NCBI RefSeq assembly: GCF_028858725.1
Contig: NC_084774.1
Span: forward strand, 9,894,001-9,958,000
Direction: 5' to 3'
From: Colius striatus
Lineage: Eukaryota > Chordata > Aves > Coliiformes > Coliidae
DNA length: 64,000 bases
The notes beneath the pieces are model-generated. The model was not told the DNA's origin. It made no database searches and saw only the letters and a list, made by a program, of their open reading frames with translations. Both the position numbers and the translations under genes were made by a program. Position 1 is the stretch's first letter. Each line of letters starts with the position of its first letter. Shown one piece after another: positions 2,316-53,860 of the stretch.

Positions 2316-2474
2316 CGCTGCAGACCCGCTCCTGGGCCCTCTGCTCCTTGTCACTTTTCCCAGCATGATGAAGCCAGCGGTGGAGATGCTCCCGAGGGTG
2401 TTGATGGGCTTCTCAGCTATTTTCTTACAGTCCAGATAGAGTTTAACCTTGAAGTGGCTCACGGCCACATGCAC
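2316..2474 (-). CDS. COL20A1: COL20A1 coding exon 24: end of TSPN domain
   Basis: 159 nt, phase 0 to 0; last exon recognised in the window. It codes [20 protein letters not shown] and ends [15 protein letters not shown], as does the matching exon of collagen XIV before its collagenous part. Acceptor ctgctgcccag, donor GCG|GTGAGT. Confidence 0.94.
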
Positions 2475-5400
2475 CTGGGCAGCAGGTGGAAAGAGGCTGG
2501 TTGGAGCTCCACGACGAGATGAGGGAGTCTCTTACAGACTTATTGCCTGCTGCCCAATTCCCAGACTGCTGCTCTTACTGGTGGTGTGTTTCTAATGAGC
2601 AAATGGATCAAGGGAGCTCAGCAATAAGTTTCAAGATGTGCCATGTCTGCTGTGCAACACTGCACTGTTCCCTGATATTCTCTCACCTCTTAAGAGAAGC
2701 CTTTCTGGAGTTGTAACCTTGAATCTTTCAGTTTTCAGAGCTAGCTCAATAGTAAAAATGCTTACAGTTACCAACAGAAAGTGCTCAGTGCTCATTTGGG
2801 TGGAATACCTTTGCTCTGAGGACTCAGATGGCCAAAAAGTACCGTCATGACTGATAAAATGGCTTCTAGATTCATTCCTTCCTTCCCTCCCTCCTTCCCT
2901 TCCTTCCTTCCTCCTTCCCTCCCCTCTCTTCCTTCCCTTCCTTCCTTCCTCCTTCCCTTCCCTCTCTTCCTTCCCTTCCTTCCTCCTTCCCTTCCCTCTC
3001 TCCCTTCCTTCCTTCTTCCCTTCCTTCCTTCTCTCCTTCCTCCCCTCTCTTCTTTTCTTCCTCCTCCCTTCCCCTCTCTTCCTTCCCTCCCCTCCCTTCC
3101 TTCCCTCCCTCCTTCCCTTCCTTCCCCTTCCTTCCCCCTTCCCTTCCCTTCCCTTCCCTTCCCTTCCCTTCCCTTCCCTTCCCTTCCCTTCCCTTCCCTT
3201 CCTTCCTCCTCCCTTCCCCTCTCTTCTTTCCCTCCCTTCCTCCTTTGCTTCCCTCTCTCCCTTTTCTTCCTTCCCTCCCCTCCCTTCCTTCCTTCCCTCT
3301 TTCCCTTCCTTCCTTCTCTCCTCCCTCCCCTCTCTTCCTTCCCTTCTTCCCTCCCTCCTCCCCTCCCCTCTCTTCTTTCCCTTCCTTCCTCTCTCCCTCC
3401 CTCCCCTCTCTTCCTTCCCTTCTTCCCTCCCTTCTCTCCATGGTCACTCCAACTTCAAAAACCTTTTTAACACACTATTTTTCCTTTTTGCCCTTGTTAT
3501 TACAACCTCAGCCCCCCTCAGCTTGGGAGCTTTTAGTGGGGAAGGGAAGCAATCAATATGTGGAAAAGCCATCTTTCGAACACGGGATGAACCTGAATCC
3601 CTTACAATTACAGCCATCAGCACATCAAAGACGTTTGCCAGTTCCCTGGCAGATCAGATGCAAAGCACGTGCACAATCACTCCTCACTTTGAACAGCACA
3701 CATTGATGGCATAATACTGCCAGACCGGAGTGAGATCCTGAGCCACATCTCTCCCTCTCTTGATAAGGACCTTATGAAAGCTCCCATAGAATATCCTCTT
3801 CACTTCCTGCTGGTCAAAGGAGACCTCCTGGAAATCAGCCTTGTAGTCATGGTTGAAATAGGTCAAGGATTTCTTACTGGCTACAGGGAAAACAGGAGAA
3901 ACAGCAGCTTAGGATGAAAATAGAAATGGATTTCACCCACATGTGAACAATGGCAAATAAATGGTAAGAGGCTTGGTGTGTTATAATGAAATCCTTTTAA
4001 GCAATGGACAAGAAAATGAGTGTGTAAACATAGAGAATATGTTACAAGTAGAATAAGAATGACAACATGGTGCTTAACTGGTTAAAATGCAAAGCTGGGA
4101 GCAATAGCAAGGCTTCCCAAAAAACCACTGCTGCATAACACAACCATTGAGGCTTCCCAAATGAGGTCAATGTATGGAAATGCATTGAATGCATGTGAAT
4201 GTGCTCAACAAGAAAGCTTACGGTCAAGGTTAACACCCAGGAGGGGCTGGAAGTCCTCATCTGTGATTTGCCACACAGCAAAGGGCTCCTTGGGGGTGTC
4301 GGGCAGGAGGCGCAGGAGGATGCTGATGGTGTGCTCAGGTGGGATGGTGAAGAGATGGACGTCACTGGAAGGAGACAAGCCAAGCATCAGGGGCTTCAAG
4401 CAGCGAGAGGCAGCAGGGAGAATCCTACAGACAGGGCTCATCCATCGTGTTTCTTGGGGGAGGTGGCAGGGAAAAGCTTTACCCCTGGGAGCTCAACATG
4501 ATACACCAAGAGAGAGCCTGGTCCCTGTTCTGTGCATCCCTCTCAGGCTGTTGGAGCCTGGGTTGAGTGATGGGCTTTCGGTTCGTGCTGGGGGGGATAC
4601 CCAGGGGAAGCAGTTGGTGTCAGTCCATCACTGCCAGAGCTGCCTCAGGGAATGTCAAGACACAGCTAGTGCAACCTTCATGCTTTTCAAAACAGAGATC
4701 AGCAGTAGCTTAAAAAGCATCCCCACCAAGCTCCAAAACACCTCCCCCAGGTCTCCTCTTGAAGGAGGAGGAATAGCCACCACGTATCATGGGGTAAATC
4801 TTTAAGCCTTGGCAGAAATCAGTATAAGAAGTGCTCTTCAGGGATAAGCATAGACCCCACAGTAAGTCCCCTCTGGGTCCCCATGACCCAGCTGCATCAT
4901 TTGGGGTCAGTGGTGGAAGTCATGAAGGTGCAGGGATGCCTGTCAGCACAGGGATGCCTGTCAGCACAGCCCAGCTCCCTCTGCAGCTGCTGCCAAACCT
5001 GTCAGAGCACACTGAGAGGATGCAAGGCAACGGGGAAGGTCGAATTGGTTATGCCTGAAATACATCTGTAATCTGAAGCAGGACACATTTGCATGGGCAT
5101 ATATACACAACTCATCAAGCATCTTTTCAGGACTGATTCATAAGTAATGTCAGGTTCTTGTTCCTGCTTCTGAAGGAGCAGTGTCCTTGAAGGGCTTGTG
5201 TGCCAGTTGAATAACGAGAAAGGATTTGCCCATAATTTTCTGAGTATTTAAACCAAAGAGTTCTCTGAATCTCCCCCATTCTGTTTACTCTAAGAAGCTT
5301 GGGTTCTTTAACTAAGATTAAACTGAGCCAGTGCCTCAGTAATTAGGCTTTAAACAAAGCAGCAGGGAATGTCAGGAGTCACATCATTCCTCATTCATAG

Positions 5401-8400
5401 TAGTAAAAAATGAGTGAGGTCATGGGAGTCTCCTGGCCCATGTGGGACCCTGTGGAGGAGCCTCACACACAAGGAAACAGGGTCAAGTCACAAAGCAGAG
5501 GCAGTGGTTATTCCCTCTCATCAATAAGGACCAAGCTGCAGAGAGCAGCTCTGAGGCAAAACCTTTCTAAAGCAAAGATCTGTCTCCAAACCAGATGATC
5601 TCCAAACCAGAGATGCTGAGAGATGGATTTGAAGATGAAAATGTGACCTCAGACTGCCATCACTGAAGTGCACGTGGCTGTGGACAGAACACACACAGAA
5701 TATTGCACTGTCCATCCATGGCATGACCCTTCTGTCCATCACAGCAACCAAAGCTGCTGAACAAAGGGATTTAGGGAAAGGGAAAAAACCTCCCTGGGGA
5801 AAAAGTGTGGCTGCACAAAATAAATTGCAATGAACATCTCCCCTTAACTTCTGTGTGACCTACTCCACATCCATCTTGAGGAAAGTCAGGGGTTAATTTC
5901 TGGCTCTATTAAGGAATCCTGTGGGATTCTTCCCAGCCCACCTCTGCTTGGCATTAGCTCAGCATCTCTGGCATTTCCAAGCTGCCAGTGGGGCTGCATC
6001 ATTCAGCCACAACGCAGTGATCTTCCTTGGCTGTGAGCATGGCTACATGTGTATGCCTGAGTGATGGTGAAGGTGACACTGGCCACAGCTCTGCTCCCAC
6101 CTGGTCCTCTGGGTGAGTTGAGTGTCTCTGAAGAGGGTGAAGGTGCGGGAACCGCTGAATACAAACGGCTCCATGGCGACGCCTTTAATAGAGGCATATT
6201 CCTTCTCCACTAAGCCAAAAGCTTCCATCATATCAAATCCTGCAACAGACACACAGAAAAAGAAGCCATTAGAAAAGAGTGCAAAAGAAGAGTTGTTGAA
6301 GAGCAGCTAGAATCAGCCTTTAGCTAGCACAGAGGACACCATAGCAACACTGACACCAACAAGGCTGTGCAGGCTCACTGGAAAGCTGGAGCCTACTCCA
6401 CATGTGGCAGCCAAGGAAAATAGATTGTGTCTGAACCCTCTGTACACATTTGCTGTAATCTCCTCCTCTAGAAGGGTAGACTAACGCTGGAGAGTTTCAC
6501 AGTTGTGTTTGCAAATCTTCAGAACAAAAGAAAACCAAAATGAGAAAGAAGTTGCTCCAACAATTTCTCCTTTTTGACCAGAACCACAAGTATTCTCCTC
6601 AAAAGACACAGAATCAGTCCAGTAATTGCTGACAGGGAGGTAATTACTCCTGATCTGAAATGCCTTAAATGGAAGGGTGAGAAAATTAGGAAAGCACTTT
6701 AAAACATGAGCCTTTGCATTTGTCTGCTTTCACAAGACACCCAGGGCTCACCTGCCTCCTGCAGAGGTTCTGCCCTGACAGCTCTGACATCACCTCCCTG
6801 GCTCGTGCTGCTTCATCTCACCCTCCCAGCTCATCACTTCAGCTGAGAGGCATTTTCTCATTTCAGTTTTCTGCTCAGTAAGACAAGATCTTGCAGTAGG
6901 GATTCTTTTTCCTTTTAGTTTTTTGCTCCCCCAGTTTATCAGGCTTTGCAGCAGGCTGGGGTGAGGGAGATAGCAGCTTCTTTAGCAAATGGAAAGGCTA
7001 CAACTTCATTACAACGTGGTGCTTTCAGTCTGGATTGCCTCAGCCCTTTGCCATTCACAATCTTCTGCAGCTTCTTTTGCCTGGGGACTGGTCCAGGGTG
7101 GGTTTGCTTTCTCTTTTTTTGCATTTTCCAACAGTACTATGGAGGTTGCCAAAAGAAATGATCTACCTGAGAGCCATTTATCTCTGTTATGGAGCCTCTG
7201 GCACTGGTTCTTCCTTTAAAACATGCAGGATTTAAGTGTCAAGACTGAAGATAAGGCTTGAGTTACCAATATAAACCTACTATCATATTGTGAATCTGCC
7301 ATGGAATAGTTTCAGTGAGCTGCCGAGGAAATGGGCTACTCCTGTTTGTCAAGGAGGAGGAGAAAAAGAGGTCAACATTTATTGTGGCTTTGGCTTCTGC
7401 ATCCATAGACAGGGCAACAGCACCAGGAGCCTTCCATGCAGGAATGCTCATCTCCATGAGCTGACAGAGTCAGAGGTGGGAGCTGAGCAAAGATGAAGTG
7501 TCTCAGCCCTGGGGTAACAGTGGAGCTGAGAACTGAAGGCAGATTCTCAGTCTCATCCACATCACAAAGGGAAGGTGATTTTACTTTATCAGCAGGACTA
7601 ATTGCTTTCTAAGTAACAAATGCACACAGCAATCCCAACAACATGAACAGGGGTTACAGCACAGACAGGAGAAACGGGAACTTGCTCCCCTACAAGCAGC
7701 CTGACTGCAGAGAGCTCTCTGGGCACCTACACCTCCTCTAGAGGATTCTACAGGTGATGCTGGTGACAGGCTGAGAGTGTTTCTTAAGGAATGTGTATGA
7801 ATTAAGAATCTAAATCCTCTTGAAGTTCAACAGCCTTTTGGAGCATTATCTCCCTGAAGGCCAATGACAATCCCAGCATTCAGCACCAACAGCCAGGAGC
7901 AGGAGCTGCTGGAACAGCAGGGACATACCAACTCAGTCAGTGCAGAATATACTTCTACCAGATGGAGATTTGCCTGTTTCAGTTCTCAGACTTGTCTCCC
8001 TCAAGAGAGGGAAACCACTTCCCCTTACAGAACCCCAGAGTGAAGAGGGTGAGAAGGGTCTTCCAGTGCTCATCCAGCCCAACCCTCTGCTAAAGCAGCT
8101 TCCCCTCAGTCAGGTTCACCACTGGGGCTTGACATGCTACTGTACCTCGTAGGGAGCCTTGGGTAGAGCTGATGGTGGGGCAGACTGTGAAAAGAAAATG
8201 AAAAGGGAAAACTGTTAGGGGAAAAAAACAAGACAATAGGGGATTATGGAAGCCAAGTGAACACAGTTCCTCTAGGCAGAGCAGTGGGAAAATACAGCAA
8301 AACTGTATTCTGCAGGTTAATTCAGAGCTTGGACTTTGATCTTATATATATGAGGAGGCAGAGTTTGTGTTTCTGCAGACATAAAGGCTGTTACTTGGCT

Positions 8401-11400
8401 TGCCCATCACAAAAACAGGACTACTGTCTGTCATCATCAAACATCTCCATGATCACTTCCTTCTGACTATCTCAACTTACAATATGAAATACAAGAGAGC
8501 TTAATGTCCTGCAAGTTTCTCTTTAAACAGAGACATGAAACCACCTGACCCTTTTAAACAGAGCTCCTCCTGACCCTTTTAAACAGTGCTTTGACTGCAA
8601 CATGCACCTTAATGGTGTCAGAAAATAAGGGTAGCTGCAGTTGCAAACGTTGTACCTGAATCTCAAACCACACACAGCAAAGAAATGTGTATCTCAACTG
8701 GAGATTTTGGCTGTTGAACTCTTCAGGGAAGCACAAGGAGTTCTGGCAAAGTTTTGCAGCTTGCCTTTCAGAAATTCCCTTGATGAACCTTCTGATCTGC
8801 CACAGGACAGAAAGCAAAAGCAAAGGAGAAAAGGCTGGAAGGAGAAGCTGGAAGGTGAGGCACCGTGGTGGTGAGCACTCTCTGTTTAAGGCTCAGGTAA
8901 GGGGCTGTTTTAGGAAATAGCAGAAGAATCTTCACTTCAATTATCTGCTGCCATGTAAATCTCAGGCCATGGGTGCCAGATGGAGCTGGGACAAAGGGAA
9001 TGCTTGATGCAAAATGAGAAATGTCTCTGAAAATCAAGGACACTGGAAGAGATGGGTGATTTCATAAATGGTTTTCTAGGTCATGAGTGTAATAGAATCC
9101 AGCAGCTTGTTATTCTGAGGCTTTGTTATAGCCTTGCTATTGCTATTCTTGCACCAGGGCTGTTTCATACCTCATCAGAAGGGCAGGGCTTCCAATTTTC
9201 CATACCTAACTTCTATATGTGTTAGAAAAACTGAAGGGCACTTGAGAGTCCTAAATATACAAGGCTTTCAATGCTATTCTTCATGATCAGGACATACATC
9301 AAAGAAAGGGCACCCAAAACTGTGACTTTGATGGTCAAGGGGAAGGGGAAGGGGAAGGGAAGGGAAAGGAAAGGAAAGGAAAGGAAAGGAAAGGAAAGGA
9401 AAGGAAAGGAAAGGAAAGGAAAGGAAAGGAAAGGAAAGGAAAGGAAAGGAAAGGAAAGGAAATTCCTCTCAAACTCTTAGAAAGAGGCTGTAAACTTGTC
9501 AATTTGCCAGATATCTGACATTCTTGCTTGGGAATCAGGGAGCTCCTCCTGACCCTTGCCCAGACCCCTCTTGCTGACATCCCTGGCAACCCTCTCTCCT
9601 TCTGAAGCTGGAGTCACTTGAGTTGCTCATAGCTCTTTGATTTGGCAGTGTTCAGCTTAGAGGATGCATATCAGAGTCAGGGTGAGGATCCCTGACACTG
9701 CCAGTTTGCAATTCTACTTTGAAGCTTTTTTTTCCCCTCCACTTCCCAGCCTCAGGTTCCTGCTGTCTTGTTGTTCTCTTTGGTTGTTGTTTTTCTCCCC
9801 AAGTCCCAGCCAAATGCAGTTATTCACTGTACAATAAAGACCCAGCCCTGCAGTTTCAGATCATTGCTCTCATAGTTTGGTTACATATCAACATTGGAGT
9901 CTCTTGCTGCACATCCCACTGTTTTCTCAGCTTTATTACATATCATCTCCTCTTCTTCCAAAGCAAAGAAGGGACTTTATCAAACACACAGAGTGTCATA
10001 TTTCTTCTATTGCCTTCTCAGCCATCATGACCAAGCAGCTGTATTAAATCCTACAAGGTGACTCATCAGCCTTATGGGAAGGTTGTTTTCTGGTTGCAAG
10101 TTCACAGGACATTTCCAACGTGGTCTAAACACCTCTAGATTTCCTCAATAAGCCACTTGAAAATGCAGTCTGATACATTCCTTGTTGGTTACATCACTTC
10201 ACTCTTCCTTTGGGGCTTCCCTCAAGGCATTTTGAATCTGAAGTGTTGTTTAGAATCATTTCAGACAGACAGGAAAAGGCATTTTGGCCTTTTATTGCTT
10301 TTATTACTGCCACAATATCTGTGTCCTAATATTTGCTTCCTAACAACTTTTTATGATCCAATTAATTCAAGGTTTTCTCACTAATCCATTTCATAGTTTG
10401 CTTTGTATCAGCTATGAGAACATATGCTCATTAAATTTAATAAGGGATTTTACAGGGAACTTCAGTTTTAAATGTCATCCTTCCCTTCGCTCTGTTTTAG
10501 TCAAGTTGTGCAGAAATCCTGTACAAATACTATCAGCCCCTTTACCAAGTGAATCTGAGTTTAAGAAGTGATGTGGTTTCTGGCTGTCCTTGGGCAGTCC
10601 CCAGAGGTATCTGTCAAGAACTGACATGCCCACTCCTGCTTTCCCTGCAGAGCCCACACTGTGTGATTTGTTACTCAAATAAAAAGCCCCAGAAGAAAGC
10701 AAGAGTTTACAGGAGGTGATTTACCCTCTGCTTTGGATGGAATGAATCCTCTTATGGAAGGGAATTTAGACAACACAGGAGCTGGAAGAGAAAGCAATGC
10801 ACACATGAGCTCTGTTATTCAGGGTACTGATGCATAGCTCAGAACCCAGATGGTCACCAGCCCTTCCCAGCCATCCTGACATTGCAAACAATGCATGGGA
10901 GGAGTGCAGAAGCTGAGGGAGCCCTCTTTGAGGCTGAGCAAAACCCCAACCTTGGCCACAGCCCAGTGAAAGCACAGACATTGCTGCCCCAGTGTGTTGC
11001 CTCCGGGCTGATGGCTGGAGGGTTGTGAAGAACAGGCAGGTGCTGACTGATGCACTCACCCGTCCTGCCCGTGGTGGCTGTGCTCTCGCTCTCTCCTGTG
11101 TAGTGGATGGCAGACAGGGTCACCTTGTAGGCTCGATCAGGCAGCAGAGGCTGCAGGGTCACACTGCTGCTTTTGCCAGGTGCCATGATCTACAAGGGGT
11201 AGAAAGAGAGCCCAGAATTTGGGCAGGCTTCATCTTACAGCTCTTACTCCTCAGAGGCATGTGGAGGGGCTCTAGGAGAAAGTTCTGGAACAGTTTACTT
11301 CGGGTAACAGTGAAAGCAAGCCCAGGGAGTCTGGCTCTGCACTGCCATCAGACTGGCCATGTCCAAGAGTATTTCCCTGTGTAAAGATCTCAATATTCCC

Positions 11401-14400
11401 CATGCCAATGGGTCAGAAGGGCCTTGTGACACAGTAACCAGGCTGGGTCTGAGTAGAAAATCTGGGGTTTAAAAGGTTAACGTTGAACCTCCCTCAGTCA
11501 GAGAGGCAGTCAGTTTATCTTCAACTCCTCTGCCTCCAAGAATCCGCCATCACCAATTCAAGGAGAGGAGAAGGCTTTGAGGGACACAAATGACTTAATC
11601 ACAAAGAAACATGGAGGTCTCCTTCACCAAGCAACACACCAGCAAGTCAAAGGAAGAAGTTGGCTTTGTAGTCCTGCAGACCATCTACCCTCACAATAAG
11701 CTCTGCCAGAGTGAGCAGAGTTCTCCTGGGCATGAAATCCTCCCTGTGTCCCTTTGACCCAGTGCCTGTCACCTGCAAAGGAGATGAAGACTTACTGTTT
11801 GCTGATCACTGGTGTCAGAAACAGGGTTGTAGGTGATTTTGTAGTGCTGAACACGGCCGTCAGGAGGGGTCCAGTGGACCTGGAGGCTGGTGGGGGTCTC
11901 AGAGTCGATGAAGAGGTTGGTGGGTGGGCTCCTGGAATCTACAGCAGGGATTAAAGGTGAACAGCATGAAAGGTAGGAAGTAATGACTATAAACAGGGGC
12001 AGCAGCACTTGCTTCCAGGCCTGTTTCTGGATGCTTCAGTGCTCTGCTGTGCTGTTCAGCAATGCTCAGAGCACAAGCAGTCACCTCGAGGACCAGGCAA
12101 GAGTGAAAACAGATTCAGGAGGAATGAGGTTTGCATAAGTACATCACTGTACAACCCAACCATTCCACAATCCAAATCCTAGCACCTGGAAGAAAAATCC
12201 TAGGAGTGAAGAGTCCTAGAAGCACAAGGGAAACAAATCCTCTGCTTGTATCATGGACAAATACCAAAGGATACCCTTGCTGAAGACCTGAGGATCTGGA
12301 GACACACTGGCCAACAGCTTTAAATATGGATCACACATCAAAGTTAATCCATCCTAATTGGACCTATCAAGGTCCCTTCCAGCCCTTGAGAGTCTCTGAT
12401 TCTGTAATTCTAATGCTTTCCAGCTTTTTCATTGTGTTTTAACTCTAAAAAAGCCTGGGACAGCCAGCAACCACAGCAGTCTAGTGTATCTCACACCAAA
12501 CAGCTGACAGCCTGGTCAGCAAGAAAAGGGTTTGCCAGAGACCAAAGCTGAGCAGCTTCTCATTATGCAAATGCATTTCTTTCCCTGAGGTCCTGCTGTG
12601 TAGCAAACTGGAGCTGGTGACAGGGGCTGTTATGCTGGAGTGATTTCTCTGAGCCGGGGCTGAGAGTTGGGAAGAGAAAGGCAGAGGGGGTTAAATGCAT
12701 CCAAACTCCTGGAGCTTGTTTGCAAGCACTGTCTTGCTCTGCATAAATGCATGTGCCTGGCCTTGGACCCGGTGCTGGTGTGAGCACACAGGAGTTTTGG
12801 ATAGAGAAAAGGAAGCATTTTATTCAGAAGAGACTAAAACTGATGGGTGAGCCCTAAAGACTGTCAAGGACACACACCCAGGCCATGAGATTTCCTTCTA
12901 TTCTGCAGTTTTACCTGTAAGGCTCTTCTGTCCACTTAGCAAAGTTCAAGGAGACCTTAGAGGACAGGTTGGTGAAGATCATTTGCCTTTCCATTGATCC
13001 TCCTTCCCTTTGCTGTATAAAATGAGCTTACTTTTACTGAAGCTAAACCAAGCTTGCTGGCAGCTGAATCAGGCTGGAGGCTGTTGCTGTGCCTCACTGC
13101 AAGGTAAGGTGGAGAAGAAAACAAGTGTGGGAGGTAAAGTCACTTCAACAGCACTATTATTAGTGCTATGCTGTACATCTGTGTCTTTGCCTGTGGCACT
13201 GGCTATTTCCTTCAGCTGAGGTAAGTGGAGACTCTGTTGAAATGAACTTTAAAGGGAAAGTTAGGGAAAGCCTTCTGAGTTGGGTTTATTCTGGAAAGCC
13301 CCTAGGCCTGGCAGAATGTGATGGCATGGATCTGACAGCCAGGAGAAAGGTCACCTCCTCAACCTGCCCAAGAGGATGGAAGCATCTCTGAACCAGAAGA
13401 CACCAGCTGGGTCTTTGATTACCTCTTGAACCTCTGCTCCTTCAGAGGAGGGATCCCAGCCTGCTTGCTCTGGGGCCTAAGCAGCACCACAGACACATTT
13501 TCAAATAAAAGTAAAGCCCTGGAGCCTGCTCCATCAAAACACTCCTCTGCAATGGTTGTATGGGCCATGGAGCTTTTTCCCTCTTTGCCATGGGTTGAAG
13601 TTTCTTCCCCACATTTCAATCCCTTTCACTTGCAGTGTTTGCTCTCCTAAGAGCTCGTTGAGGAGCTGGATAAAGAACTGAGAGTCATTTATTAGCCTCA
13701 CCCTGGAGATGCTGCTGGAACAGCTTAGTTAGAGGAATGGGGCACAGATGCACTTTGTAATCCACTTCAGTGCAGAGTCAGCCAGGACGGCTCAGCTCAG
13801 CTTCAGCAGCAGCTCCCATCCAAATTGCTCTCTTGGTTTTTTGCACAGAAGAGGATGAGACACGTTCACGTGCTCTGCTCTGGTGGCAAAAACTTCAGAG
13901 AGAGACTTTCTGAGCAGATGGCAAAGATGAGGAGGGGTGACATTGCTCAATTTGTCAAGAAGATCTTCACAAGGCCACATATACTAAAGTTTATTTCCTC
14001 TTGCCCAAGCTGAGGGACTGCTTTCGTGTCCCTAACTCTGTGGCTCACATTCTGATCCCCTCTTCCACATCCATTCACATCACCATTGCCTCAGGGCCTC
14101 AATCCTGAAGCACCATGAGAGAAAGAGACTCCAATGTCCTTGTCCTTCAGAAGAAACAGGTGACCCTTTTGTTTTGTTCAAGCTCCTTTCCCTCAGTTGG
14201 GATGAAGGAAATTCCCCTCAGTACAAAGGAGAGTTCCCTGTCTGCTTCTCAGCAGGATCAAAAGCCCATCACTTCCAGCACCTTTCAAGGATCACCACTC
14301 AGCATCACCACAATGTCCCATCATCTTCCTCACCAAAGAGCATCTTCTGCACCCCCACTAGCTCGTGTGAAAGGTTTGTGTCTGTTTGAAGCACCACTAA

Positions 14401-31046: not shown

Positions 31047-31058
31047 GGTGAGCAGGAC
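30974..31058 (-). CDS. COL20A1: COL20A1 coding exon 1: signal peptide
   Basis: Coding part is 30974-31046 (73 nt, leaves in phase 1); 31047-31058 is 5' UTR of the same exon. The product begins [20 protein letters not shown], a hydrophobic secretion signal. The ATG at 31046 has A at -3. A good 3' splice site (pyrimidine-rich, ttgcag) ends at 31059, so at least one untranslated exon should lie upstream. The frame stays open upstream of the ATG, but across the presumed splice site. Donor is AAG|GTAAGG. Confidence 0.85.
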
Positions 31059-34974: not shown

Positions 34975-35413
34975 TGAGCTCCTGTGGTCCCCAGCCCTGG
35001 GAAGATCCTGGGAGAGCCCCCTCAGCTCCTGTAGTTCCCAGCCTCAGAAGAGCCCTGGGAGAGCCCTCCCTGAGCTTTTGTGGTCCCCAGCCTCAGAAGA
35101 GCCCTGAGAGAGGTGTCTCTGAGCTCCTGTGGTCCCCAGCCTCAGAAGAGCCCTGAGAGAGGTGTCTCTGAGCTCCTGTGGTCCCCAGCCTCAGAAGAGC
35201 CCTGAGAGAGGTGTCTCTGAGCTCCTGTGGTCCCCAGCCTCAGAAGAGCCCTGGAAGAGCCCCGCCTGAGCTCCTGTGGTCCCCAGCCCTAGGAAGATCT
35301 TGGGAGAGCTCCCCTTGAGCTCCTGTAGTCCCCAGCCCTGGAAGGACCCTGGGAGAGTCTCCCCTGAGCTCCCATGGTCCCCAGCCCCAGGAAGACCTTG
35401 GGAGAGCCCCCAG
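34975..35413. repeat. 49-bp minisatellite, about nine copies
   Basis: Tandem units of about 49 bp beginning 'gagctcctgtggtccccagc'. Three central units (about 35,068-35,265) are almost identical; outer ones have drifted. It lies upstream of the COL20A1 start exon. Confidence 0.95.
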
Positions 35414-36496: not shown

Positions 36497-36515
36497 TTGT
36501 TTGTTTGTTTGTTTG
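36497..36515 (+). repeat. Short (TTTG)n microsatellite
   Basis: Four to five TTTG units in an A/T-rich stretch between the two genes. Confidence 0.8.
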
Positions 36516-37414: not shown

Positions 37415-37420
37415 TTTATT
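37415..37420 (-). terminator. Polyadenylation signal of the DEPTOR-like gene
   Basis: AATAAA on the minus strand, 131 nt after the stop codon. It implies a short 3' UTR of roughly 150 nt; a more distal site is possible. Confidence 0.65.
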
Positions 37421-37551
37421 TGAAAGGACACTAAAATGCCTGGCCAATGTTTCAGAGGGAATGGTCGAGCTAGATCCCTCTCCACTGTCCCTCCTGGCTT
37501 AGGAGATGGGGTCCTGCCTTTCCACACAGCCCTGGGATGAGACTCCTCTTC

Positions 37552-37677
37552 TCATTCAACAGCTTCCATGACTTCCATCACCAGAGTTCGTGGTCCTGTC
37601 ATGATGAGGCTGCTGATGGTCTGATAGTCCAGATGCAAAACATACATCCCATTCACTGAGAAAACAAACTGGCACAC
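37552..37677 (-). CDS. DEPTOR-like coding exon 9: end of PDZ and stop codon
   Basis: 126 nt including TGA (37552-37554). It codes VCQFVFSVNGMYVLHLDYQT and ends MEVMEAVE, one residue short of the human ...EC ending. Acceptor ctccttgcag. Confidence 0.96.
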   Translation of the reverse strand: MCQFVFSVNGMYVLHLDYQTISSLIMTGPRTLVMEVMEAVE

Positions 37678-40600: not shown

Positions 40601-43600
40601 CCAATGCTTTTTGAAACACTTGCACAGCTTTTCAAACCAAGGCTCAGAATTGAGGCTGACCCTCTCCCTCTTGCAAGTCGCTGAGCTGATGGGTTTGGAC
40701 CTGAGGCTTGAGCTAGCCCATGCCCTGAGGGAACAGATGTATCCTGTGCAAGGACAGGGCAGTGCAGGAGCCCAGACCTGATTTGGGGTTGCACTCGGCC
40801 ACGGGAGGGAATATCAAGGTAGGAGCAGTGCTGAAGTAAGGGTTGGAGTTCCCAGCGAGGGAAGTGATGCTGCTCCTTCGAACTGCTGAGACGATTTTGA
40901 TCTCCTTGTTGGTCTGGACTGAAAGAGGGAGAAATAAGCATTAGCAAAAGAAAGAACAGATGACAAACTTTCCCCAGCAGCCTGGCCCACGTCTGGAAGG
41001 TAGAGCATCCACTGAAGCATCTGAGCCTATAAACAAACTACCTTCAAAGAAAGAGCAAGAGCTAGGTTGCTGACAAGTTGAGTTACATCCCTGGGATGAG
41101 GAGCTCTGATAGAAACTACCACTACGTCATGACACCCACCACAAACCAGTGACATGGGTGAGGACTTCATGGGACACCTGGAGGAACACCCTACGATCTA
41201 CCAGTGCAGCACCCTCCGAGCTCTGGGATACCCCTGCTAACATCACCCTTGCTTTCCCATCCCTCCAGAGACACATTTGCAGGTACCAGAGAGAAAGCTG
41301 GTGTTGCCTGGGTCGGGGTTGAGCTTTCGGAGGCAGAAGGGGCTGTCTGGGCTCTCGGAGAGGGCGCGGGAAGAGCTCTCGTTGAGCAGCTCGGTGAGAC
41401 GCCGCCTGCGGCGAAAGTTGATCCAGAAGTGGTAGAGGATATCACTGTCAAAGAAGTGATGCCTGTTGGAAACTAGGAGAGAAAAGGGGAAACTAGGAGA
41501 AGGGAGAGGTTGCAAAATGAGGCAGCAGATATACAGAGGGGAGGGGGCAGATGGATTGTTTCAACATCTCTGGGTGCTGCTGAGGGTTTTCTGACTGACT
41601 GAAACAGGGAAGGAGGAACAGCAGAACCAGCTCCCCAGGAGAAGTCACCTCCCAGGGCTGCATCCCCAAGTCACAGCCCTCCATCTGCCCCTGTCCCAAC
41701 ACACTCAGAGGACTCCCTGCCTTCTGGCTGAAAGGTTAATTCCTACAGATGGTTACGATCTCCAGCCAAGCTGAGCTGAACTCTGCATGGTCCCAAGCCA
41801 GCCCTCCCAGCCCAGGGCTGGATCCTCACCCTGCAGCCAGAGGCTTTGAAGAACTGAAAAGCAATAGCTCACATTTCAACTCAAAGCCTTTGTGAGTGGT
41901 GGAAGACTGCTCCAGTTTCAAAGGTCAGCAGCTCCAAAGATAGAACTAAAAGGCCCCATTGCCATCTCCAAGTGGGCACTTGACCAGCACTTGTTATGTG
42001 ACATGAATGGGGATTTGTTCCCAGCACAGCTCTGACAGCCATGCTCATCTCCTGCTTCCCACAGCAGCCCCAGGCAGACCCCCACTCACCGTGCTGAATG
42101 ATCCCGTGCTCCAGCAGCACCCGGCCCAGCTCCACTGCTTCCTTTCTGGTCTCCACTTCTCCCTCCTGGACCAACCAGTCGATCATCTCACAGCCCAGGA
42201 AAGTCCTCTGGTACTTCACTGAGTTCTCCTCTCTCACCTTCAGGATGGACTCTTCCCCACTCACCAGCCTGGCACAGAGGTGGGACAAGGCTCCCGTGCT
42301 GCTGTGCAGCTCCGCCGGCCCACGCGGGAGCTGCAGCCTCCCCAAACGCAGCCACGAGAGGTGGGCAAAGCCTTACAGCCAAAACACTGCTGCCTGGGAG
42401 CAGTGGGAAGGGAGGGAGAAAGGCAGAGCTGCTTTTTAAACCTTCATCACAGCAGAGGGAGAAGCTTCAGCACAATCAGTTCAGCTGCGACTCCAGAGGA
42501 AAGCCAAGCAGGCAACAGCCAGCCTGAACTGATGGAGGAGGTGCATTGCAGCAGACACTGTGTTCAGTACTGGGACCCTCAAATGGACACTGAGGTGCTG
42601 GAGCATGTCCAGAGAAGGGCAGTGAAGCTGGGGAAGGGGCTGGGAAAATGAGGGTGTTCAGCCTGGAGGAGGCTGAGGGGAGAGAGGAGCACTCCCTGCA
42701 ACTCCCACACAGGAGGCTGCAGTGAGCTGGGAGTCAATCTCTTCTTTCCAGTAATCATTGATAGGACAAGGGGAAATGGGCTCAAATTGTCCCAGGGGAG
42801 GTTGAGATTGAAGCTGAGGCAGAACTGTTTCCCTGAGAGGGGTGTCAGCCCCTATGCCAGGCTGCCCAGGGAGCTGGGGGAGCCCCCAGCCCTGGAGCTA
42901 CTTAAAAGACACAGAGATGAGATGCTGAAGGACATGAGTTGGTGGTGGCCTTGGCTGTGTAAGGTGAGGGGTTGGATATGATGATCTCAAAGGTCTCTAA
43001 CCAAAATGATTCCACGATTCAGTTTGCAGCTCAATCCAGTGTCTCCACGAGAGGGAGCAGCGGGCTCAGCCATGAGATGAACACTCTTCCCAGCCCACAG
43101 CCCAGCTGAAGCACAAGGGCTGCACATCTGCCAGAGGCTCAGGGAAGCAGCTGAGAGCATTGCCTGCCTGCCTGCAGTTTGTGCCTCTGACTGCCAGGGT
43201 GTGAGGATGCAGATGATGTGAAGAGGCTGCTGAAGGAAATGAGTCCAGAGGGTGGTCTGTGCTTAAACACAGTCTAATGAAAGGACTGATGATGGCTTGG
43301 ATTTAGAACCAGAAACAGTCCATACAAAGAGGACTAAACACATGGAGCTGGGAGGACTTTTCTTTACTGAGCATTACTTTTTCCATTCCAAATTGCAGAG
43401 AGGCTCAGTGAGGTGCAGGGATCCAGGGCCATGAGGGTCCTGTACCCTCCTGATTCTGGAGGTGCTGGTGGAAGCAGCTCATGCAGGGAGGCTGGGGAAA
43501 GGGACTGGATGTCCCCAACCCAAGAGCACTCAAACTGCAGAGTGGACCCTGGTGCTTCCAAGTACCAGATCCCAGAACCTACACTGCGACTGGAGCCCTT

Positions 43601-46600
43601 GAAAGCACCTGTGAGAGTTCAGAGTCCCAGCCCCAAAGACAGGGCAGAGGACACAGCATTTGCCAACACTGCAGGACGGGGTGCAGAGAAGGGACAGAGG
43701 AGCCAGCTGTAGCCACGGCTCTCGTGCAGAGCATCAGCAGCAAGCACAGCCAGCCAAGCTCCCCAGGCTTCTCCCTGAGAGGTGTTTTGCAGGGGGAGGA
43801 CTCACATACTTCTCATAGAGACTCTGCCCTCTGAGGAACACCTTCACGTCCTTGGTGGGAGGGAAGGTCCCGTCGTCCTTGCGGAAGCGATACAGCAGTT
43901 TGGCGTCTTTGTAGTCCGAGTGCTCGTCACAGACTGAAAAGAGCCCAGAGCAGGGACATCAGTGCTTCAAGCAGCTGCCAGGCTGTGGCAAACACACAGG
44001 CAGAGCTGCACAGAGCACAGACATCTTATCTCCAGGTTAAAAGCTATGAGGGCTGCATGTCACGTCCTTCTCCCTGCCCCTCGTACCATGGAGCAACCAG
44101 CATTTGACCTTCAGTGCTGAGGAACATCTGCAGCCCATGCTGCTGGAGAGCTCAGTCCCACTGGGAAAGCTTGAGCTTGGTCCTACCTTTCGACCCAGAC
44201 ACTAAAACATTCATTAGAACAAGCAGGGATTTGGGGGTTTTTTGGTTACATGTTGATGTTTTGGTTCAGACTGAAAGAGAACAAAAGGAATTGTGTCAAA
44301 CAGGTCTTTTTTCAGAAGGATGCTGTCACAGGTAAGGAGATTTGCAGGACAAGGGGAGATAAAACCCCACAGTGCATCCAAAACCCCATAAACCCCTCTG
44401 TCCCTATCAAAACCACTAAGATGTGTAACGACACCAGCTTGTGCCAACCCTACCCAACATTTGCATGGCAAACTGACCTCAAGAAAGATGATTGTTCTTC
44501 GAAGCTGGGTGCATGCAACTGGAATAATCAAATCTGTACAGAAAACCAACTCAGTATAATGTTGAGGATAAGCACACAGTCTGTAAACACAGGGCTGCTG
44601 AGTGCATGCAACATTTAGCAGGTAAATATTTGAGATATGGCTTGGAGATAAACCTGCCTGCAACAGATTATTTCTAGACTACAAGTGGGCAAACAAACAA
44701 AGCCAAACCAGCCCCAGAAATCAGTTGAGCTTTTAAATCAGTCAGTCTCCAGCTCCCAAGGAAGCAAGGAGGAGAAACTTCAGTGGTTACAAAGAAAAAA
44801 AGGGTAAAAGATGTGCCCAGAAAACACAGAAAATTGGTTAAAGGGGGAAAAAAAACCCACAGATCTCCCTAAAGTAACATAACCCACTAGAGGCAACTTT
44901 GAAAGATGTGAGATAGGTCTTGGGAGAATTGCACTTGTTCCTTCTGTGCAGACTGGCAGAGCTTCATTCCTCTGTTGGTGAGCAGCTCCATGCTAAAACT
45001 TCAGATTATCTGGACTTCTTCATTCCTCCTGAGCAGCTGAAGTGTGACTCACTGAGCACAAAGGCAGGTCCAGAGAGTCGTTGTAAGAGGTGAAAGTTTG
45101 CACCTTCACAACTCCAAGGAGCAACAATTGAGAATCAGTGATTCAGAACTCAGTCACTGTAATCAGGAATCACACACAAAGCCTCAAGGGACTGAGCCCA
45201 TAGCAGAAGAAAGTGGGGTTGTTATTTGAAGGCCAATTTCAACGTGTTTCCAGCGTGGAATGGAATGACAGCTCAAACCACATCAGACCATTGAGAGGCA
45301 GCACAATGATCTTCATGAGATAATTATTGTCTTCTGGATCCCAGCACAGAAGAAGGCAAACAGTTTAGACAAGTCAATTGCAAAGCACTCAGCACAGAGC
45401 TGCTGTTGGAAAGCAGCTTCATTTCCACAGGACTAACAGAAATGAATGGTCATAAGGCACGTTGGAAAGTCGACTTGTGTGTCCTGCCAGGAGTAATCAC
45501 AGGAGCAGGAGGGATGTGGCTGTGACAACCAAACCAGCACTGGTATTCTGGGCTGCACAGGTTTCCTTAACTAATAGATTGATTTGAAACTGTCACTGGA
45601 GGTGGAAAAGTAACCAGTTTAAAGTGTTAATGGTTAACTGAGAACTCACTACTTCAGCTCTAGGCTTTTGTGATAAAGCACAGCAGAGGTTTGCTTTTGT
45701 TCAAGGCAGCTTAATGTAAAAGGCATTAACCTCGGCAAGTAGCAGATGGCAACAGAGAGTGTTTGCATTGCAGTGGTCCAAAGCAGCTCTTTGTGGACCA
45801 TAGAGAGGAAAAGGGATGAAGTGTGCTATAGTTGTCCTCTGCATCTGACTCCTCAGCTTCATCCTCTTGTGACAAGCTGCCACCCAACTCCAGGACACCA
45901 TTGCTCATGTCCCAAAGCAAGAGAGCTCAGCCAAGGGTCAGCAGCTGAGCCCCAACCCTTCCCACTGAGGACAATGGTCTCCCAGGCCTGTTTGACAACC
46001 CAGGACTTTTGTTCCTGACTGGCCCTGCAAAATCACAGAGAGAGAAACAGCTCTTCACTGATCTGAAGCACTTGCTTCTCGTTGTGTCAGGACCAAGGGC
46101 TGGAGCCTGGGGATTGCTCTGCAGCTCAGGGACAGGCACAGACCTCATGACCCAAGTTAATCCAACACCGCTGAAAGTTCCAAATAGCATTTAGTCTTTG
46201 TTCTTTTAAGACCTAGGGCATCAAGCTGCTTCTTACCCTCCTTTTTCTTCCCCTCCTCCCCACCCTTTTTCCTTTAAGAGACTCCATGGAAAAGCCTTTG
46301 AAATTACATCACACAGTGCCCAGGGGAGTCAGGCCTCCAGGATTACCTCAGCTTTCAAACAATAGTAACTTCAGACACTGTTTTCCCAGGGCACAGCCCA
46401 AGTCCCTTTTCTGTGGGGCAGGGAACTGGTACATCCCCCAAAGCACTGCAACTTCCCACAGATCCAACCCCATGCAGCATCATCCCTGCTCATCATCTCC
46501 CAGCTTCTCCAGGAGCCCTCACCCACAGCAAGGTTGTGAAGAGTGACCTTCCCAATGCTTCAGCCCCCTGGGCACGAGCAGCCCCACAGCCACATGCCCA

Positions 46601-49600
46601 GGGAGGCTCAGGGCTGGCAGAGGAGCCCACGCACCGTGGTGGATGATGAAGTGGTCCATCAGCTTCTGCATCAGGCGGATGCCGGTCTCCCTGTCCGGCG
46701 CTTCCTTGCGGTCGATGAGCCAGTCCGTGAGCTCCTTGGCCACGAAGCAGTTGGGGTACGTGCGGAGGTGGTACCGTCTGTCCTTAATGAGCTTCCCATC
46801 GTGGAGGCGAAGCCTGCAGAGAAAGATGCACTGAGCTGCTCTGACAAGGGACTTTGGGTCTCATAGGCCAGCATCATAGAATAGTTTTGGTTGGAAAAGC
46901 CCTTGAAGCTGCTGCAGTCCCAGCCCTGCCCTCACCCTGCCCAGCCCAGCACTGACCCACAGCCCTCAGCACCTCAGCTCCACGGCTTTGGGATCCCTGC
47001 AGGGCTGGGCACTCCCCCAGCTCCCTGGGCAGCCTGGCACAGGGGTTGACACCCCTCTCAGGGAACCAGTTCTGCCTCAGCTCCAGCCTCAGCCTCCCCT
47101 GGGGCAACTTGAGCCCAGTTCCTCTTGTCCCATTGCTTGTTATTTTGGAGAAGATACTGACCCTCACCTCATTCCAGCCTCCTGTCAGGGAGTGTCAGAG
47201 TGCTCCTGTCTCCCCTCAGCCTCCTCTTCTCCAGGCTCAACACCCCCATTCCCTCAGCCCCTCCCCAGCACCCTTGTGCTCCAGCCCCTTCCCCAGCTCC
47301 CCTGCCTGGCTCTGGCCACGCTGCAGCCCCTCAGTGTCTATTTTGTAGTGAGGGGTTCAAATTGAACACAGAATTTGAGGTGTAGCCTCACCAATGCCCA
47401 TCACAGGGCTCGAGAAACCTAGAGAAACCATTGATGAGTTGGAACTTCTGGCAAGCACACAGTGACTTCTAAGTCCAGCCCAATCCCTTGGCTTTAGACT
47501 TGGGGTAGAAGCAGGAATGGGAGCACTCATTTCTTCCAAGAGGATCCCATGCACTTCTTACTAATCCATGTAGCCATTACTCCACAGTTTCACTGGACAG
47601 CAGGCCTAATGTTTACTGGTTCAAACTGGGACAGAGTTTACCTAAAAGTATCTTGAAAACCCCAACATTATGGACAGTCTGTGACTGCAACAGAAAGGTA
47701 CATGTGGGTGATGGGTACTCAGGTGAGCATGGCTTTGACTTTTAAAAGGACCTTAACAACTGAGCAAAGCCACAAGGCACAGAGATCTTCTGTGTTCAAG
47801 CCAAAGCCAACCCAACTTGGCAGGAGATCTGTTCAGGAGCCAAACTTTTGCCCTGTAGACATGACTGTTCCCAAAATTCTAACCCTGGAAAATACCCAGG
47901 GACTGCAACAGACTGAGAGGAGAGATGTTAATTAAACATCTCCTCCAGGTTGTTTCTGACTTCAAACCATTTCAATTCCCAGTTTTGCCCCAGGCCAGTG
48001 TATTTTACAAAGGCATTAATCACTGCAGCCTCTCTGTGTTTCATGCCTCAAGTTCTGTTCTTTTTGAAGAAGTTTTACTAAAACACAGCATGTTGGACAA
48101 CAGTCTCAGGCACAAGTAGTTTTTCATCCCCTCACATTCAGGTTATAATGGATTCTCCTATGTTACAGGATTTACTAACACTGGGGGCTCAGAAGCCTTA
48201 AGAGAAAACCTTTTGTTGGGTGAAGAACTAGCAATTGATTGCTGAGATTAATACTGAGGCTACCATGAGCCAACATCAATTCCTAGCAGGTGTTTTCTGA
48301 TCTTCTTGGTAACTAAAATACTACAACCAAAGATTCATGCAGAACCAGCTCCTGGCATTGCTTTTGACAGGCCTCCTTTAAATCCTGAGCTCTACAGAGT
48401 TAGTACTTTATACTCTCTTTAGCTGGAAGGCTCGTTCCCACCAGTGACCAGCAGCCATTCTGCACACAACTTTTACCTGAAGAGAACAGTTCACAGACAA
48501 CTACCTGCTATTTTTAGAGCTTTTAGCTTTTTCCTTCCCTTATTTCATGGTCCCATGTCAAAATGCAATCAGACCCAGGCAGCAGCAACTGCAAATAGAG
48601 AGGCTTCCCAACCCAGCATCCCTCTGCTATGGGGGAAGACAAACAGTCACTTTGTTATATGTTTTCTTTCCTTCATAATCAGCAAGATGCCACTCCAGAG
48701 GCATGTTTGGGAGAGATAAGAAGTGTACTAAGAGTATTCCATTGCTATCAAGAGTCTGCAGGAGCCTATAAAAGACTATATATACACAGACACACATCAC
48801 TCATGATATCACACAGACCATAATCACACAAGGGCTGAGAAGAAACTGAGTGGGAGACTTCTGTTTCCCCTAAAGGTCTCCTTTTTTAATCACTTTTCAC
48901 TATAGAAAATGCACAAATCTTGAGGGGGGGGAAGGGAAAAAGAGAAAGAAGATTTCCATCAAACAATACTAGTAAATAAAACCCCCAAAAACAAGAGCAA
49001 GAGAAGTCCAGCACACATAAACCCCTCAAAGCCTCTTATTCTGACACTGTTCTGTTAGGACAGTTGCCAGGGCAGGAGTTAAGTGGTGCTGAAGCAACTC
49101 TGGAGCAGCAGCATCCTGGACCCCCCGTGGGCTGTTTTAGGTTTGTGACACTTGTCCTCTTGCCTGCAGCTCCAGGGTACCAGAAGATACACCACTGGAG
49201 TGTCCTTGGGGTCTTTCCACTTTCCTCTTGTTTACCATTTCCCATCAAGGAGACAAGTTGTCCTTCAGACACAGAAGGACGTGCAGCAGCAACTGTGCCT
49301 TTGAGCAGCTCAGCTGACACCCTCTGTAAACCAGCCCATGTAAAAACAAACCCTGTGAGCTTATGAGTGGTTTGTGCTTCCAGAGAAGAAGTTTGAAGGA
49401 AGGCTGTATAATGCAATACCATGAGTTTCCTAAGTGCCAAAGCTTACCCCATGTACACTTTGCACCTTCAAAGGAGGAAAAGAAGAAAGAGAAAGAATAA
49501 TGCAAGGTTAAAATACTTGCTGGAACATGAGAACAGGCTGTTATGAGCCACTCCTGGCTTGGCAGTCAGTGCTCTGCTTTCACATGCACTGGCTTTCAAT

Positions 49601-52600: not shown

Positions 52601-53860
52601 ACTGCTTTTCCCCTATAAGAAAGTTCAGTTGCTTTTCAAAGCCTGACTTACAATGTGCACTGTAAACCCTGCAAGGGCAGAGAGGCTGATGCAGCCTCCC
52701 CCAACAGCATCTCTTCTAGGAAAAGATTTAAATTCTGGGGCTAGGAGAGTGATATTTGTGAAAGACAACAGACTAGAAATGTGCCTGACCACCACTGCAT
52801 GCTTAAAATCCAGCCACTTTGGGCATTGGCTGTGGTTTCAAGGTGGGATTCTGATCTTTAGTTGGTGATTATCACTCCTTGATGCAGCACAAATACAGAG
52901 CTAAGGTTAAAATGACTGAGAATGGCCAACACAGCAGCAGAGAGCTAATTTTAGGAATCTGATGGAAGCACACTTAAGCTCTGGGCTCTCAAGGATGTAT
53001 TTCCTGTTTTCCATCCATATTTCAAACCAAAACAGAACAGCTCCAGATACAAACAAGCAAACTCAGCTCAAGGGCTGGAAAAGCCTCCAGTTGCATGCTG
53101 AGAAGCAAGAGGGGAGTCTGTGATCCCAGGTACACAAGGAACACCTTTTCCCAGCCACACAGGTTTTCTGGCACAGGATGTTTTTCCTTATGAATGCAGG
53201 AATATAAAACCCCACAACTCAGAAGCTGCTCAGGATTTGGGACTAAAACCAGCAGAAGTTCCCAAAAGTGACTTTCAAGTGAGGAAAGATTCTACATATT
53301 GCTGTAGAAAATAATCCAGGTGCATGGCACCCATTGGATGATCTCCCAAATCGCCCCAAACAACCCAAATAGCCCTGGGGATGGTGTCATCCCAGCCAGC
53401 CAGGGACCAGGGACCTCAGGAAGGCTGCTCAATGGCAACACTTCAGGGTCTGCACTTGAGGGAAGATGCAAAGGGAGAAAAAACCTCCTGTTGCTATCTA
53501 AAACCACCTGCAAGTCCTCTGGCACCTGGAAGGGATGGCCAAGAGCTGCACAGAGAGGAGAGGCAGGAGTGAGTAATATGGGAAGCACTTGGTTCATCAC
53601 TGATTTGGTGGGTGAAGGAAGGATCAGTAGATACTGGGGAGGGGGATGCACTGACACCTGGGAGGAAAGAACTTGCCTAAAGATAAACCTTGGAGCCTCT
53701 TGCTAACAGGATACAATCCTGAGCCCCAAAGCACAGCCCTGTCCCAGCCTGGAGAAGGGCCCATCACCTCCTACCTCAGTTGCTCTCCAGCAATCATCAC
53801 CTCTGCTCTGTAGTGCTGCTCCGTGGCTTTCTTCTTCAGGCTGCTGCTCAGGCTCTCCAT
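37552..53860 (-). CDS. DEPTOR-like protein (DEP-DEP-PDZ), complete nine-exon gene
   Basis: DEPTOR binds mTOR and restrains mTORC1 and mTORC2 in the cytoplasm. Nine exons join in phase to 398 codons plus stop (human DEPTOR: 409 residues). Order: short N-terminus 1-29, DEP1 about 29-130, DEP2 about 130-230, linker about 230-322, PDZ 323-398. DEP1 contains TYPNCFVAKELTDWLIDRKE and YRFRKDDGTFP; DEP2 contains RTFLGCEMIDWLVQEGE and NFRRRRRLTELLNE; the PDZ starts IVGDAVGWGFVVRGG. These patterns, and the junction PKS-VLKRPV, are specific to the DEPTOR family. Many positions differ from mammalian DEPTOR, most in DEP2 and the linker, and the neighbour is COL20A1 rather than COL14A1, so I infer a paralogue. 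No established symbol is known to me. It could be the species' only DEPTOR if the other copy is lost; the rest of the genome decides that. Confidence 0.9.
38863..38967 (-). CDS. DEPTOR-like coding exon 8: first half of PDZ
   Basis: 105 nt, phase 0 to 0. It codes IVGDAVGWGFVVRGGRPCHI and QAVDPGGPAAAAGMK. The carboxylate-binding loop is GWGFVV in place of the usual GLGF, as in DEPTOR. Donor AAG|GTACTT. Confidence 0.96.
40391..40461 (-). CDS. DEPTOR-like coding exon 7: linker before the PDZ domain
   Basis: 71 nt, phase 1 to 0. It codes VLKRPVTNEELLSPGAPYIK and KTLT, close to the human segment that leads into the PDZ. Acceptor ctgctctag, donor ACT|GTAAGT. Confidence 0.94.
40778..40918 (-). CDS. 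DEPTOR-like coding exon 6: linker with the altered degron region
   Basis: 141 nt, phase 1 to 1. It codes NKEIKIVSAVRRSSITSL, then NSNPYFSTAPTL and ECNPKS. The stretch that is SSGYFS in human DEPTOR reads SNPYFS here (about residues 276-281). The donor is TCAG|GTCTGG, a weak site, but the protein reads PKSVLKRPV across it as in human DEPTOR. Confidence 0.92.
41287..41472 (-). CDS. DEPTOR-like coding exon 5: end of DEP2 and start of linker
   Basis: 186 nt, phase 1 to 1. It codes VSNRHHFFDSDILYHFWINF, then RRRRRLTELLNE and SPDSPFCLRK. The basic run RRRRR is shared with human DEPTOR. The acceptor is ctctcctag; the cag 9 nt further in would break the phase match. Confidence 0.94.
42090..42268 (-). 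CDS. DEPTOR-like coding exon 4: first part of DEP2
   Basis: 179 nt, phase 2 to 1, the same length and phases as the first DEP1 exon, as expected for duplicated domains. It codes KYQRTFLGCEMIDWLVQEGE and ELGRVLLEHGIIQH. Acceptor cctctgtgccag, donor CACG|GTGAGT. Confidence 0.95.
42530..43022 (+). mobile_element. CR1 LINE, 3' portion
   Basis: Ends 'aaccaaaatgattccacga', the CR1 3' end, and shares most of its last 350 bp with the copies at 46,873 and 55,815. It lies in intron 3 of the DEPTOR-like gene, antisense to it. Confidence 0.85.
43810..43933 (-). CDS. DEPTOR-like coding exon 3: end of DEP1
   Basis: 124 nt, phase 1 to 2. It codes VCDEHSDYKDAKLLYRFRKD and DGTFPPTKDVKVFLRGQSLY before donor GAA|GTATGT. 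Acceptor gctcttttcag. Confidence 0.95.
46635..46813 (-). CDS. DEPTOR-like coding exon 2: first part of DEP1
   Basis: 179 nt, phase 2 to 1. It codes LRLHDGKLIKDRRYHLRTYP and NCFVAKELTDWLIDRKEAPD, then RLMQKLMDHFIIHH. It is the most CpG-rich exon of this gene. Acceptor tttctctgcag, donor CACG|GTGCGT. A CR1 3' end lies about 60 nt upstream. Confidence 0.95.
46814..53774 (-). other. First intron of the DEPTOR-like gene
   Basis: About 7 kb, the longest intron of this gene. It starts (downstream end) with a CR1 copy at 46,873-47,410. I recognise no exon or other repeat in the remainder; long first introns of signalling genes often hold enhancers, but nothing here shows one. Confidence 0.6.
46873..47410 (-). 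mobile_element. CR1 LINE, 3' portion
   Basis: Starts 'catcatagaatagttttggt' (reverse complement of the CR1 3' end) and extends to 'gaggtgtagcctcaccaatg'. It lies in intron 1 of the DEPTOR-like gene, same sense as the gene, about 60 nt from the exon 2 acceptor. Confidence 0.88.
53775..53860 (-). CDS. DEPTOR-like coding exon 1: N-terminus
   Basis: 86 nt, leaves in phase 2. It codes MESLSSSLKKKATEQHYRAE and then VMIAGEQLR, matching the VTGEQLRLRL region just before DEP1 of human DEPTOR. The ATG has G at -3 and G at +4. The frame is open for about 80 codons upstream, to another ATG at 54,109, so a longer N-terminus cannot be excluded; the Pro/Ser/Gly-rich upstream reading does not look like the family. 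Donor GAG|GTAGGA. Confidence 0.8.

Follow-up and report, generated by a model that had tools for sequence, protein, structure and literature searches.

DEPTOR restrains the growth-controlling kinase mTOR, and we take the human gene (DEPDC6) to lie at 8q24, adjoining the collagen gene COL14A1. In the window, i.e. the whole stretch of 64,000 nucleotides from Colius striatus analysed here, a DEPTOR-like gene lies beside a different collagen gene, which raises the question whether it is the ordinary DEPTOR in a new place or a second DEPTOR gene, and how its protein would act on mTOR. A preliminary description of this DNA had placed a DEP-DEP-PDZ gene directly upstream of a gene with the collagen XX layout, in the same orientation, the two spanning positions 2316 to 53860. 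Indeed, both genes were found on the minus strand, the one with a nine-exon frame and the other with the order FN3-vWA-FN3-TSPN, and the span agrees with the ATG of the DEPTOR-like gene at 53860 and the end of the last TSPN exon in the window at 2316 (Table 1).

Table 1 Positions of the exons and domains of the DEPTOR-like gene and the neighbouring collagen gene in the window.
Feature	Position	Strand	Evidence and remarks
DEPTOR-like exon 1	53775..53860	-	ATG at 53860, 28 codons and two bases, reads to GEQL(R) as in human
DEPTOR-like exon 2, DEP1	46635..46813	-	tblastn 46/60 identical to human, 2e-25; GT-AG
DEPTOR-like exon 3, end of DEP1 including mTOR-contacting 116-125	43810..43933	-	tblastn 5e-17
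DEPTOR-like exon 4, DEP2	42090..42268	-	tblastn 5e-18
DEPTOR-like exon 5, rest of DEP2 and first part of long linker	41287..41472	-	tblastn 1e-14
DEPTOR-like exon 6, part of long linker, SNPYFS at the degron	40778..40918	-	tblastn 5e-10
DEPTOR-like exon 7, linker preceding PDZ	40391..40461	-	tblastn 2e-7
DEPTOR-like exon 8, first half of PDZ	38863..38967	-	tblastn 9e-17; D336, R345, Q353, D356 kept
DEPTOR-like exon 9, second half of PDZ and stop TGA	37552..37677	-	tblastn 3e-15
AATAAA, likely poly(A) signal of DEPTOR-like gene	37415..37420	-	
COL20A1 first FN3	26780..28673, exons about 28673-28569, 26919-26780	-	tblastn with COL14A1, 1.5e-4 each
COL20A1 single vWA	21540..24249, exons about 24249-24085, 23621-23499, 23362-23192, 21671-21540	-	tblastn with COL14A1
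COL20A1 FN3-2	20441..21320	-	human COL20A1 5kf4 best of 22 PDB matches, 3.8e-27
COL20A1 FN3-3	18963..19990	-	human COL20A1 2dkm, 1.9e-15, joined FN3-3 to FN3-5 query
COL20A1 FN3-4	17640..18489	-	human COL20A1 2ee3, 6.1e-23, joined FN3-3 to FN3-5 query
COL20A1 FN3-5	15767..17150, exon limits approximate	-	reading frames; splice signals in part; without tblastn match
COL20A1 FN3-6	11061..11930	-	tblastn with COL14A1
COL20A1 TSPN	2316..6252, exons about 6252-6097, 4372-4223, 3872-3762, 2477-2316	-	tblastn with COL14A1, 7.5e-11 to 7.2e-9

The DEPTOR-like gene is intact, with a coding sequence that runs from 53860 to 37552 on the minus strand in nine exons, encodes 398 amino acids, ends in TGA and has a GC3 of 0.737. 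All eight introns are of the GT-AG type, with lengths from 316 to 6961 bases. The exons of human DEPTOR were matched in order on the minus strand of the window by tblastn (best exon E=2e-25), using a human query that agrees with PDB chain 7owg_O everywhere except at residue 389. Exon 1 was picked by scoring upstream 18-codon stretches ending in a GT or GC donor, among which the candidate at 53830-53775 scored 37 and the runner-up 21. Exons 2 and 3 together comprise 303 nt, or 101 codons, and are therefore as long as the span of residues 42-142 absent from isoform 2 of human DEPTOR, described in passages of PMC5237168 as two in-frame exons, which suggests that the intron positions in this part are common to both genes.

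The encoded protein is 66-68% identical to human DEPTOR (269/397 by BLASTP; 268/409 human residues end to end) and has the layout of the DEPTOR family, i.e. two DEP stretches (Pfam, 1.8e-43) and then a PDZ domain, without DH-PH, the Pfam match to PDZ_6 being slightly below the cut-off of 27 with 26.4 bits. It has the order DEP-DEP-linker-PDZ in common with human DEPTOR, as well as 67 of the 86 PDZ residues, whereas its N-terminus is 12 residues shorter and its second DEP is identical at only 43 of 74 positions. When the protein was compared with PDB by phmmer, human DEPTOR came first (3.3e-178), and the next-best relatives for the DEP-DEP-PDZ part, far less alike, were PREX2 (5.8e-42) and PREX1 (1.3e-38). 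The latter two are Rac exchangers with the full layout DH-PH-DEP-DEP-PDZ-PDZ; PREX was rejected as the identity of the gene, based on the weaker match and on the nine-exon protein, which holds only DEP and one PDZ. As expected, neither viral contigs (query, the entire protein) nor prokaryote genomes (query, the 59 aa of exon 2) yielded a confirmed relative.

The collagen gene downstream of the DEPTOR-like gene extends between about 28.7 and 2.3 kb, likewise on the minus strand, and its domain order in the window, derived from reading frames, tblastn and splice signals, is one FN3, one vWA, five FN3 and TSPN. We take one vWA and six FN3 to be the layout of COL20A1, and two vWA and eight FN3 to be that of COL14A1. 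Multi-domain fibronectins headed the PDB matches of the joined FN3-3 to FN3-5 query (1fnf, 2e-31; 3t1w, 6.5e-24), and the collagen matches of the same query were all to collagen XX, with 2ee3 third and 2dkm fourteenth of 18. FN3-2 is identical to human COL20A1 at 47/86 positions and to COL14A1 at 41/85, and FN3-4 at 43/88 and 35/88, respectively, in a comparison that took in two of the six FN3 domains and a provisional COL14A1 sequence. Since the control comparison of human COL20A1 with this COL14A1 sequence gave 43/85 for FN3-2 and 29/88 for FN3-4, FN3-2 discriminates XX from XIV weakly and FN3-4 does so better. No triple-helix exon was identified within the window, and the triple helix is expected past its left end, so that the label 'collagen' rests on the FN3, vWA and TSPN parts. 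COL14A1 was rejected, its FN3 identities being lower and its layout of two vWA and eight FN3 differing from the window. The preliminary description had staked its reading on the collagen being something other than COL14A1, and judged by PDB matches of the FN3 domains, identities and layout, the collagen is COL20A1. It is like human COL20A1 in its FN3-vWA-5xFN3-TSPN layout and its PDB matches, and differs in its upstream neighbour, which is DEPTOR-like here and presumably ARFGAP1 in human; a human ARFGAP1 query gave no tblastn match in the window.

The window also contains several repeats. A 49-base minisatellite of nine copies (or a 147-base unit repeated three times) is located at 34972-35411, between the 3' end of the DEPTOR-like gene and the FN3 exons of COL20A1, and a TTCC/CCTTC polypyrimidine array at 2871-3434 in a TSPN intron of COL20A1 is open in several frames through its composition only. 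A GGAAA pentamer array occupies 9353-9462 (22 copies, 99% matches). Five intervals, 1126-1557, 42627-43029, 46870-47304, 55818-56058 and 60564-60839, are each matched four times in other parts of the window and resemble what we take to be the 3' ends of CR1 retroposons, in keeping with DNA from a bird or reptile. An Rfam scan of the window at gathering scores was empty. Upstream of the DEPTOR-like gene (54001-64000), no Pfam domain was found on either strand in read-through translation, a negative that is worth little, since the same method missed the short exons known from 1-10 kb and 28-38 kb, which are home to the TSPN exons and to FN3 and PDZ parts.

The gene, its layout, its neighbour and its residues are observed directly in the window. 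Ordinary DEPTOR adjoins COL14A1, whereas the neighbour in the window is COL20A1; the pair matches the DEPTOR-FACIT order and orientation, in a comparison that covers the one neighbour in the window. In a chicken association study, ENPP2, TAF2, DSCC1, DEPTOR and COL14A1 are all listed at 136.7 Mb of chromosome 2 (passages of PMC11507135), and the same five genes are given in the same listed order in dog (passages of PMC5418765). PMC6354393 assigns the regions around CHRNA2 and CHRNA4, on human chromosomes 8 and 20, to one 2R paralogon, in passages that name neither COL20A1 nor KCNQ2, and the genes of a 20q13.33 segment include both CHRNA4 and COL20A1 (excerpt of PMC6995492). A block duplication predicts just such a pair, with a DEPTOR-like gene directly upstream of COL20A1 and both in one orientation; the link lies at the level of chromosomes and of one neighbour. 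Judged by the chicken listing and the 8/20 paralogon, as far as these sources go, the window gene is best interpreted as the second of the two DEPTOR duplicates. The genome duplications of early vertebrates would have copied an ancestral block of DEPTOR and a FACIT collagen, with DEPTOR-COL14A1 deriving from one of the resulting blocks and the DEPTOR-like gene of the window with COL20A1 from the other.

It would also be conceivable that a plain DEPTOR orthologue has moved beside COL20A1 in this lineage, or that the collagen is COL14A1, as the 66-68% identity to human DEPTOR and the same architecture would fit an orthologue. However, the collagen is identified as COL20A1 by its three PDB matches and by its layout with six FN3 and one vWA, the chicken study (PMC11507135, in the passages cited above) lists DEPTOR and COL14A1 side by side on chromosome 2, and it would be an unusual coincidence for a moved DEPTOR to settle directly upstream of, and in line with, the paralogue of its former neighbour, which makes such a history very improbable.

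The divergence of the two DEPTOR proteins bears on the timing. Rooted with PREX2, informative differences are distributed 10:8 between the window gene and human DEPTOR (P=0.81; 42 more sites are uninformative), and rooted with PREX1 they are distributed 8:9 (P=1.0; 43 more sites are uninformative). On these few sites the divergence appears symmetric relative to the PREX outgroups, and nothing points to a copy that evolves fast or decays. A later, lineage-specific duplicate of DEPTOR, segmental or small-scale, which landed beside COL20A1, is compatible with such values insofar as divergence by itself gives no date. This scenario is nonetheless very improbable, because the order and orientation of DEPTOR-COL14A1 are matched and yet the neighbour is COL20A1 and not a copy of COL14A1, because the divergence is high and the branches are symmetric relative to PREX (18 and 17 informative sites), and because chromosomes 8 and 20 have a 2R paralogon in common according to the passages of PMC6354393. 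The duplication of a DEPTOR-FACIT pair, which the preliminary description had put forward, is thus partly supported, namely by order and orientation, the COL20A1 identity, the chicken DEPTOR-COL14A1 listing and the 8/20 paralogon, as far as the cited passages describe them, and the symmetric divergence.

Human DEPTOR anchors with its PDZ on the FAT domain of mTOR, after which activation is suppressed by the DEP tandem; in the PDZ interface, D336A partly and R345A/Q353A/D356A fully reverts inhibition, and in the DEP tandem, D120A/D121A or the replacement of 116-125 by a glycine-serine linker turns the effect into stimulation (passages of PMC8439649). All residues named there are kept in the window protein, i.e. 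D336, R345, Q353 and D356 of the PDZ-FAT contact (4/4) and 116-125 of the DEP tandem including D120/D121 (10/10). The hypergeometric probability of 14/14 identical residues is 0.002 relative to the whole protein (268/409) and 0.009 relative to the folded domains only, values that rest on two sequences and on a stretch, 116-125, that was swapped as a block and not singly in the mutants described. In addition, 17 of 19 residues are identical to human DEPTOR in the part 305-323 (exon 6 into exon 7), the linker portion of the construct 305-409, reported to stabilise the PDZ (excerpt of PMC8439657). Most likely, to judge from these residues, the window protein works as DEPTOR does: its PDZ would anchor on the FAT domain of mTOR, stabilised by the linker, and the DEP tandem would then dock on FAT and partially restrain activated mTORC1 and mTORC2.

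The control of stability should be different. According to passages of PMC5237168, mTOR phosphorylates DEPTOR at S293/S299, which promotes phosphorylation of S286/S287/S291 in SSGYFS and binding of betaTrCP; in another account, mTOR primes the degron at S299 together with T295, and degradation routes outside the degron are described as well (passages of PMC8933699). In the window protein, SSGYFS reads SNPYFS (S287N, G288P), and S293 and S299 are replaced by A and P, so that the betaTrCP phosphodegron with its priming sites, a feature of the control of human DEPTOR that is not known to define the family, is missing in its human form. A simple pattern search for another betaTrCP-like motif in the window protein found none. 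Unlike their human counterparts S265, S287, S293 and S297-S299, the corresponding residues are not phosphorylatable, whereas S286, S291 and T295 are retained, and 7 of the 13 S/T sites of a 13A construct, as named in an excerpt of PMC8439657, are still phosphorylatable. The block 284-304, which was picked after the alignment had been viewed, is identical to human at 9/21 positions compared with 61/96 in the linker (P=0.026). The retention of S/T in this block (4/9) does not differ significantly from that in the remaining linker (14/21; Fisher P=0.42), and a special S/T depletion around the degron was therefore rejected as a count.

In human, SCF-betaTrCP binds the phosphorylated DEPTOR, which is then destroyed. 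With SNPYFS and the loss of S293 and S299, the window protein should resist such feed-forward destruction and be a steadier brake. If T295 is a priming site, as in the S299/T295 account (PMC8933699, in part), one such site may survive, and with one sequence at hand the altered degron may be peculiar to this species. Human S235, the ERK1/USP7 stability site in passages of PMC8933699, aligns with a serine in exon 5 (41472-41287), and the proline that follows it is replaced by serine, so that the ERK1/USP7 control may differ, too. Kept interface residues and an altered degron together predict a partial inhibitor that binds mTOR and resists the destruction triggered by mTOR, and a conserved mTOR brake with a weakened feed-forward destruction is what we would expect from this one sequence.

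The altered degron and the several altered serines of the linker could also mark a decaying, non-functional duplicate, and if mammals do lack the gene, this would demonstrate that it can be lost. Decay is, however, very improbable in view of 398 open codons in nine exons, eight of eight canonical introns, a poly(A) signal, a GC3 of 0.737, no rate excess relative to the PREX outgroups and the full retention of the interface-mutant residues described in the cited passages. We consider it probable that the window holds a second, intact DEPTOR that arose as a 2R duplicate, acts on mTOR in the manner of DEPTOR and resists feed-forward destruction, whereby we infer the age of the duplication, the mTOR binding and the stability. 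A wider reading would be a half-billion-year-old second DEPTOR of non-mammalian vertebrates, which kept its mTOR surfaces and shed its degron, serving as a feedback-immune brake of mTORC1 and mTORC2, and which was lost in mammals, where human DEPTOR covers both jobs; this we put forward tentatively, as a possibility open to considerable doubt.

Among the matches listed in the open-access literature, no second DEPTOR gene is described, and automatic database annotation may name the window gene DEPTOR-like. New here is the combination of 14/14 kept interface residues, as defined by the mutants in the cited passages, with a changed betaTrCP degron and the absence of S293 and S299. If the gene is a second DEPTOR, work on bird mTOR that measures one DEPTOR captures part of the system, and the gene would be a natural experiment in which binding to mTOR is separated from the destruction that mTOR triggers, as well as a testable case of a duplicate from the COL20A1 block that was lost in mammals.

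A known system for comparison is that of the 'elusive' genes, defined in passages of PMC10208646 as human genes lost in at least two other lineages and enriched among the orthologues on chicken microchromosomes. That study, as described there, began with human genes and so could not include a gene that human lacks, in which respect the window gene is unlike them. Like the elusive genes, a DEPTOR duplicate that birds retained and mammals lost would presumably be loss-prone in a similar manner.
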